A stretch of DNA of 34,852 bases from an uncultured Saprospiraceae bacterium (lineage in GTDB: Bacteria; Bacteroidota; Bacteroidia; Chitinophagales; Saprospiraceae): the NCBI GenBank assembly GCA_938022165.1, contig CALIEI010000115.1:1-34852 (forward strand), given 5' to 3'. The number at the start of each line of letters is the position of its first letter. The first letter of the stretch is position 1. Positions 7,755-31,160 of this stretch are shown in pieces. A program made the translations under genes and the position numbers. The notes beneath the pieces are model-generated. The model saw only the letters and a program-made list of their open reading frames with translations, was not told the DNA's origin and did no database searches.

Positions 7755-7870
7755 GTCTATTTATTTTATATTTATTCAAACACCCTATTATGGATACTGT
7801 TGCAATATACAGCCGTCTAATGTGTATTTAATTATTTCTAAAATTGATTTTTTCTTTTATTATGGGCTAT

Positions 7871-7983
7871 CCCGACCCTGCATAGAAAATTCAAGAATTT
7901 TCTATGCAGGACGGGACCAGGCCATCCGCTCTTACTTTCAGTACCGCTTCTGTCCTTTATCCCTGCGCACTCCGTTTGCCGAG
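7871..7983 (+). repeat. Copy A of an intergenic structured repeat: long hairpin (7871-7915) plus conserved core (7918-7983)
   Basis: Hairpin CCCG-AC-CCTGCATAGAAAATTC-AA-GAATTTTCTATGCAGG-A-CGGG (16 perfect bp + 4 bp), followed by CAGGCCATCCGCT...CGCTTCTGTCCTTTATCCCTGCGCACTCCGTTTGCC, which aligns with copies B and C. Confidence 0.65.
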
Positions 7984-8027
7984 CTTTGACACCTTCGGTG
8001 AGTCGCGAATGCTATTTCAGATACGCT

Positions 8028-21074: not shown

Positions 21075-21267
21075 ATTCAGACTGGATTTATAACAAGGAT
21101 AAACGCTTGGCTTGGGGGAACATATAATAGCTATGAATTATGAGATCCAAAAAATCACTAGATATTACATGTCACAATTTTAGAGTTTGAACAGAGGAGA
21201 GATGTTCTATATTCTATAACAATACAGTTACGAGAAAATTATTGCTTTTTTAAATTTTTGGCCATTA

Positions 21268-21416
21268 TTTGTACCCAAAAAAAGAGAAAAAGCTCTTTTT
21301 TTTGGCACAAATAACCGTGTCATCCGCTACTACATCACAGCCAAGGCCTATCCCAGCCAGGCTACACGCTGTGATATAACGCTACTACCACTTGTCCCTG
21401 CGCGCTCCGCTTACCT
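21268..21416 (+). repeat. Copy B of the intergenic structured repeat, immediately upstream of the hybrid kinase
   Basis: Hairpin around CCAAAAAAAGAG...CTCTTTTTTTGG (21274-21305), then GTCATCCGCT, hairpin ATCACAGC...GCTGTGAT (21334-21375), then CACTTGTCCCTGCGCGCTCCGCTTACC. Confidence 0.6.
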
Positions 21417-21466
21417 AGATTTTGAATATTAAATTTAATATTATCGAGTCACAAATTTTGTGATTA

Positions 21467-30878: not shown

Positions 30879-30930
30879 ATAGATGTACTAGTTGGTTCCT
30901 ATATTCGACATAATATACAATACAATCGGC

Positions 30931-31070
30931 GAGGCGTACAGCCGTAGCCCTGCAAGCGGATGCGCGCTAGAGGCAAAGGATAGAAGTGTTTCCGTCCGCA
31001 TTGGCTTGGCGGGAGTGCACGGAAGTAACGTATAGCCTGCTCACGTGCTGGATGAGCTGGTGCGTAGGCT
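30931..31070 (-). repeat. Copy C of the intergenic structured repeat (core 30952-31040)
   Basis: Minus strand: GCCT...GCTCA-TCCAGCACG-TGAGC-AGGC hairpin, CAGGCTATACGTTAC, hairpin TTCCGT...ACGGAA, then CACTTCTATCCTTTGCCTCTAGCGCGCATCCGCTTGC; aligns to copies A and B. Confidence 0.6.
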
Positions 31071-31160
31071 GCATCGTGATGACCCCAAATGATATCAAGC
31101 TTCTTTTTCAAAAGAGGCCTCTGCATAAAGACTTTTTTATAGTATTAGTTACATTTGAGC

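Follow-up and report, generated by a model that had tools for sequence, protein, structure and literature searches.

An intergenic stretch at positions 7871–7983 of contig CALIEI010000115.1 from an uncultured Saprospiraceae bacterium carries a strong hairpin, and the same order of boxes recurs at two further places of the 34,852 nucleotides that we analyzed (called the window below), there with hairpin arms of another sequence. This raises the question whether a structured RNA or a REP/MITE-like mobile piece of DNA is repeated here, both of which had been offered in an initial annotation of the window. Our analysis points, with a probability of about one half, to a non-autonomous dispersed DNA repeat of ~155 nt that represents a divergent lineage of the Flavo-1 motif and works as a folded sense single strand.

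Results and Discussion

The three copies in the window

In RNA folding, the hairpin of copy A (7871–7918) forms a continuous 15-bp stem and a 5-bp lower stem with −41.8 kcal/mol, while shuffled sequences average −27.4 (z = −4.0, none of 200 shuffles being as good), confirming that it is real. Copy B also folds better than its shuffles (z = −3.5); copy C, when folded alone, does not (z = −1.0). A covariance model (R2) was built from 17 copies with all three window copies left out, and its scan of the window returned exactly three matches, at 7915–7968 (+; 53.8 bits, E 1.2e-10), 21313–21403 (+; 47 bits, E 6e-9) and 30964–31042 (minus; 42.7 bits, E 8e-8), which are the copies A, B and C, and thus all three belong to the family. 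The places proposed in the initial annotation therefore stand, but the extents had to be corrected (Table 1): the GGGCTA of the outer helix at the start of copy A had been missed, copy A runs further at its other end, the limits of B and C are new, and copy C turned out to be on the minus strand. As had been noted, copy A is richer in GC (0.45–0.56) than the spacer immediately upstream (0.25–0.35). In copy A the strand that corresponds to Flavo-1 (the sense strand) is minus, and the pyrimidine-rich one is plus. Copy B is found upstream of a gene for a hybrid two-component regulator (Pfam), and copy C has an exonuclease-domain gene on one side and a CcmB-like gene on the other.

Table 1: Positions of the repeat and its parts in the window.
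Feature	Position	Strand	Basis
Copy A, whole element	about 7864–8007	sense strand (−)	R2 match and ends from ~155-nt paralogues with unrelated flanks
Copy A, outer helix P0, 5' side GGG-C-TA	7864–7869	plus-strand reading	P0 covariation test
Copy A, variable hairpin P1	7871–7918	no strand	fold z = −4.0
Copy A, helix P2, 5' side AGG-C-CA-TCC-GC (sense GC-GGA-TG-G-CCT)	7919–7929		covariation table
Copy A, variable hairpin P3, TACT-TTC-AGTA	7931–7943		unrelated hairpins in its place at orthologous sites
Copy A, CC, then helix P2, 3' side GC-TTC-TG-T-CCT	7944–7956		covariation
Copy A, outer helix P0, 3' side TA-T-CCC	7958–7963		P0 covariation test
Copy A, tail: box GCGCACTCCGTTTGCC, then hairpin GACACCTTCGGTGAGTC	7964–8007		conserved across copies
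Copy B, whole element	about 21260–21420	sense strand (−)	R2 match
Copy C, whole element	about 30925–31086	sense strand (+)	R2 match

A large family with a covarying three-way junction

The family is far larger than the three copies first reported. The 3' box CCTGCGCACTCCGCTTGCC is present at nine places of the own genome (G000) with up to three mismatches (none for the reversed control), a sequence-only model of this box finds at least 79 places, and R2 finds at least 94 copies, that is about 100; both counts are lower bounds from 150 scored candidates. A genome scan returning only three weak matches, which had been named beforehand as speaking against a family, was thus not what we found. Among genomes of the same genus R2 detects 47 copies in G002, 70 in G004 and at least 98 in G005, a single one in G003 and none in G001.

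The repeat folds into a three-way junction made of an outer helix P0, a variable hairpin P1 and a helix P2 that is capped by the variable hairpin P3, and in plus reading it is followed on the 3' side by a tail box and a tail hairpin. P2 comprises five pairs with a covarying G·A mismatch and a GNA/GGA internal loop, so that in plus reading of copy A AGG-C-CA, TCC and GC stand against GC, TTC and TG-T-CCT. Read on the sense strand, which is that of Flavo-1, the internal loop is GNA/GGA and the mismatch is either A·G or G·A. This mismatch changes sides among copies (one sample had 15 AG and 10 GA, a second one 14 GA and 9 AG), and P3 is between 10 and 114 nt long. The GNA/GGA loop fits the sheared-G·A motif (GXA)/(AYG) known in DNA; similar loops occur in RNA too, and we take the fit as a lead only. 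A literature search for this DNA motif and for MITEs of Flavobacteriaceae gave nothing useful.

When 69 of the 79 places were parsed, the long-range helix P2 was seen to re-pair from copy to copy. In 93 distinct copies 89.9% of the ten tested P2/P3 pairs are standard compared to 66.6% in shuffles, and the covariation score of 0.618 drops to 0.205 upon shuffling and to at most 0.167 with the partners slid, with 17 of the 93 copies being seeds of the model and the alignment being fitted to it. P0 covaries as well, with 119 of 162 second pairs from 81 copies being Watson–Crick (76 ± 5 after shuffling, at most 94 in 5000 shuffles). The idea of fixed boxes with re-paired stems in a structured multicopy family is therefore borne out, the covariation over many copies being very strong.

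The way in which the pairs change is telling with respect to the nucleic acid. Among the changed cells of the ten tested pairs 249 are double-sided and 6 one-sided (G·U), and one variable pair occurs as GC 40, CG 22, AU 16 and UA 15 times with no G·U at all. In other genomes, P2 of the Flavo-1 copies has 376 Watson–Crick and two G·T pairs out of 378. RNA helices usually carry many G·U pairs, and their near-absence at the variable pairs thus fits DNA better than RNA. The G·U tolerance expected of a structured RNA was found at one P2 pair in the genus of the window, the first after the mismatch, which is C·A in plus reading (sense G·U) in up to 43 of the 93 copies. At the base of P3 (602 pairs) G·T is more frequent on the sense than on the antisense strand (18 versus 3, p = 0.0015), whereas the wobbles of P0 lean the other way with 10 plus-strand G·T versus 3 A·C among the k pairs. 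The asymmetry at the base of P3 makes it probable that the sense strand is the one that folds, but in view of P0 we do not build our case on it.

Relationship to Flavo-1

The Flavo-1 RNA motif (Rfam RF01705, typed as sRNA) was described by Weinberg in 2010 (PMC2864571). Its relation to the repeat surfaced only via relatives, as at standard Rfam thresholds no known family matched in the window: the R2 matches in Flavobacteriaceae-like genomes are RF01705, on the strand opposite to the plus reading. RF01705 matches the own genome 15 times, three times above the gathering score and several times at loci that our own models had found independently. The paralogues C61, C47 and C241 pass the gathering score of 42 bits, C241 being also found by model R1, but no window copy reaches it and none is reported at its locus up to E = 5. 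The window copies are therefore regarded as divergent members or relatives of Flavo-1. This relation had escaped the initial annotation, as had the outer helix and the minus-strand position of copy C.

Both share P2/P3 on the same strand, with three pairs, an A·G mismatch, two pairs, the GNA/GGA loop, two pairs and a variable sense-strand hairpin. They differ in the outer helix, which is GRG-m-k2/k2-m-CCC in the genus of the window and GCGTNA/TNACGC or TAGC/GCTA in Flavo-1, in an extra 5' tail box plus hairpin (sense strand) and in far more variable P2 pairs of the window-genus element, and also in their interpretation, as Rfam calls Flavo-1 an sRNA and we read the element at the level of DNA.

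Flavo-1 proper reaches 111 copies in the complete genome G511, and 132 of the 137 scored candidates in G013 are Flavo-1 copies. High copy numbers are found in Flavobacteriaceae-like genomes, and in a sample of 398 genomes from the phylum, scored shallowly, 58 were positive. Records of uncultured Saprospiraceae bear the same motif. Pattern matches in Kaistella, Bacteroides and alphaproteobacteria lack the fold of the element and are due to chance.

Dispersal, persistence and orientation

Two paralogues of G005 (L160 and L165) are 87% identical over 156 nt, with compensated pairs inside and unrelated flanks, which identifies a dispersed unit whose sense-strand ends are ATCGCG...CCCCCAAAT. At least 13 of 40 G005 copies occupy sites that are orthologous to sites of G000 copies, 12 of them in the same orientation, and they retain the boxes and P1/P2 with compensated changes (for example CGCT/CCGCT versus CACT/CCGTT at the L179/L031 site) at a flank identity of 70–76%, so the repeat also persists vertically. 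At such orthologous sites P3 is swapped for an unrelated hairpin while boxes and P1/P2 persist.

Other sites are filled in some genomes and empty in others. The site of copy C is filled in G005, and G002 and G004 have an empty spacer there, of 89 and 170 bp, respectively; one Flavobacterium-like site likewise differs among species, some having it filled and others empty. The intergenic site of copy A is filled in G002, G004 and G005, and next to the same gene no element is present in G001 and G003. Copy A (7864–8007) is inverted relative to its three orthologues, either by inversion in place or by independent insertion. Neither a target-site duplication nor a clean donor–target junction was seen in this set of one genome per species, in which the nearest empty sites belong to species that are 70–90% identical.

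These data also bear on the explanation that the repeat serves the host as a site for protein binding (nucleoid, gyrase or chromosome organisation, comparable to BIMEs), which is held at fixed positions as a cruciform and for which dispersal is secondary. The orthologous copies described above, with their compensated pairs and their conserved orientation, are what such a site would leave behind, and the old syntenic copies could reflect host function rather than mobility. Moreover, convergent and divergent spacers harbor 35 of 68 copies compared to 31 of 116 background spacers of one Flavobacterium-like genome. Yet G001 without a copy and G003 with one belong to the same genus, so that the element is dispensable, and gain or loss is specific to single copies, and we regard this explanation as unlikely.

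Orientation relative to the flanking genes is even for the 68 copies with both neighbors called (++ 20, +− 18, −+ 17, −− 13; chi-square p = 0.68). Convergent spacers account for 26% of them versus ~10% in 400 kb of G511 taken as background, which is a comparison across genomes, and an avoidance of operon-internal spacers is only hinted at. A bidirectional transcription terminator or a stabilizer of mRNA ends would agree with the strong hairpins and with some copies that directly follow a terminator-like T-run, but the T-run is missing after the structure and divergent spacers (17) are as common as convergent ones (18), so that we reject such a role from the gene context and give it next to no credence.

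The random orientation also weakens the main rival of the DNA reading, namely that the repeat is a multicopy non-coding RNA as in Rfam, with a transcribed and folded sense strand and selection on the RNA fold. This is in line with the sRNA type of RF01705, with covariation on the sense strand, where GNA/GGA, the A·G/G·A mismatch and the G·U-tolerant pair make sense on one and the same strand, and with the G·T asymmetry at the base of P3. However, G·U is almost absent at nine of the ten variable pairs and about 100 copies lie in random orientation to genes, divergent promoter regions included. In addition, in a published Flavobacterium psychrophilum transcriptome Flavo-1 matches are sense or antisense alike and many fall outside transcribed regions, with no preference for the sense strand in RNA-seq (PMC9723704). 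The missing G·U, the random orientation and the published RNA-seq taken together make the RNA explanation rather unlikely.

In favor of a repeat acting as DNA are the 249 versus 6 changed cells, the random orientation, the paralogues, the filled and empty sites, the intron junction described below and a strand bias in G511, where 69 of the 111 copies have their sense strand on the strand of negative skew (69 versus 42, p = 0.013); coming from a single genome, this is a hint at a modest replication-strand bias. Against it stand the sense G·U at one P2 pair and the 18 versus 3 at the base of P3, which RNA also allows, and our searches, which gave no transposase or recombinase as a partner.

At one locus of G511 (L394, C1:5254000–5270000) four Flavo-1 copies of the same orientation alternate with genes of the same orientation over ~5 kb, and a broken Y1-type gene follows ~3 kb beyond the array. 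This looks cassette-like and may be a tandem duplication.

A group II intron at a fixed junction

Five copies, three from G000 and two from G005 (L022, L061, L063, L151 and L176), are followed by GTGTGCCGTGCATGCGG..., which begins immediately where the element ends on the 3' side of its sense strand, behind CCC or CCCC in four copies and behind CCCCT in one. Rfam calls a group II intron (RF02001) in four of the five; the fifth (L176) is similar and carries no call. Class C group II introns insert behind stem-loops, and together with the fixed junction this habit makes the element look like a hairpin target. The junction is an independent handle on the strand and the fold that are recognized.

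Search for a mobilizing enzyme

The initial annotation had suggested looking for a co-occurring REP-associated tyrosine transposase (RAYT, Y1) or another mobilizer. Of its REP/MITE-like alternative the dispersed unit holds, given the ~155-nt paralogues with unrelated flanks and the filled and empty sites, whereas a RAYT as the mobilizer is not supported. The own genome encodes three Y1 genes (L018, L019 and L020 on contigs C252, C40 and C102). They lie among arrayed repeats of two further REP-like families, one with GTAGCACC..GGTGCGG at 25-nt spacing and one with GTCCTGGAAGGACGACAGC, and thus represent real RAYT/REP-like systems that are distinct from the three-way-junction repeat. We searched for Y1 in 21 relatives and in another 22 genomes, and looked at the Y1 loci of the own genome as well as at ~16 further Y1-gene loci; no association was found in any of them, so RAYT/Y1 was rejected as the mobilizer.

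A REP family moved by a RAYT could still be argued for, as most Flavo-1 genomes have Y1 genes and as RAYT subclass 2.6 of Bacteroidetes is flanked by 'atypical' structures without GTAG feet (PMC6006769). Nevertheless, no Y1 match exists in G005 with its at least 98 copies (89% complete) or in the Flavo-1-bearing genomes G238, G159 and G049 (99–100% complete), no Flavo-1 copy was present at the ~16 Y1 loci scanned, the Y1 genes of the own genome are embedded in arrays of different repeats and no GTAG/GTGG foot is conserved at the hairpin base of the copies. This explanation is therefore largely refuted and very improbable, and the mobilizing enzyme is probably not a Y1 transposase.

Carriage by plasmids or phages was likewise discarded as the cause of the spread. 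Three Bacteroides/Phocaeicola plasmids each contain one or two Flavo-1-like sequences below the Rfam cut-off, and a phage search found no Flavo-1 copy. In one of these sub-cut-off cases, the Bacteroides ovatus plasmid NZ_CP081918.1 (L410), the sequence lies ~0.3 kb after an IS942 transposase gene.

Compared to known systems, the element resembles REP/BIME/REPIN sequences with RAYT in being a dispersed intergenic palindromic unit with ~100 copies that is likely recognized as a hairpin, but it has no GTAG/GTGG foot or RAYT link, forms a three-way junction instead of a single hairpin and does not conserve its stem sequence. Integron attC sites are recognized as folded single strands with extrahelical conserved bases and a variable terminal structure, to which the element would be analogous, although it has no R/L boxes, generally no cassette arrays and random orientation, the copies being mostly single. 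Like MITEs it is short, non-autonomous and dispersed, and present or absent at orthologous sites; unlike them, the paralogue ends are not inverted repeats, no IS terminal inverted repeats were seen and no target-site duplication was visible among the available, diverged genomes.

Proposed mode of action

For the folded DNA strand that we favor, we propose that the sense strand is exposed during DNA metabolism, which may be lagging-strand synthesis, transfer or repair, and that a protein would then read the unpaired purines of the folded strand. By analogy with the reading of REP, IS200/IS605-end or attC hairpins, this might occasionally copy the element to another place. The sequence of the hairpins would be free so long as their arms pair, and the turnover of stems, with new P3 hairpins and compensated pairs, could be kept perfect by selection on pairing and/or by arm-to-arm template-switch correction. 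Dispersal would be rare and followed by inheritance.

The Flavo-1 motif itself was known, and what is new is the evidence for its behavior as a DNA repeat, the P0 and tail of Saprospiraceae, the replacement of stems at fixed sites and the intron junction. In the limited collection of literature searched, no statement of Flavo-1 as a DNA repeat was found. We tentatively suggest that Flavo-1, which has long counted among the most abundant sRNA families, could as a whole not be RNA but a large group of interspersed folded-DNA elements, found across Bacteroidota and moved by a putative structure-reading enzyme. If this is true, its selection for Watson–Crick pairing, with stems whose sequence is free, would mark a new type of mobile or structural DNA element, namely a dispersed three-way-junction repeat. 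An Rfam sRNA family that many Flavobacteriaceae-like genomes carry in more than 100 copies would then have to be re-read as a DNA element, changing sRNA counts and annotations. It would also offer a natural system of stem exchange at fixed genomic sites in which pairing is kept without G·U intermediates, and it might then be possible to test whether selection or template-switch correction keeps bacterial palindromes perfect.

Two further observations concern other palindromes. Nested palindromes (AGAGAAAATTCATGAATTTTCTCT; AGAGACGCATTGCAATGCGTCTCT) recur within the loops of P1 and P3 (L021, L057, L059, L087 and others), as if hairpin tips attract the insertion of other palindromes. At the contig end (34702–34852 of the window) lies a ~140-bp repeat, of which G000 and G004 contain dozens of copies with 83–100% identity. 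It also matches its own reverse strand at ~75% and thus appears to be a MITE-like palindromic unit unrelated to the three-way-junction repeat.
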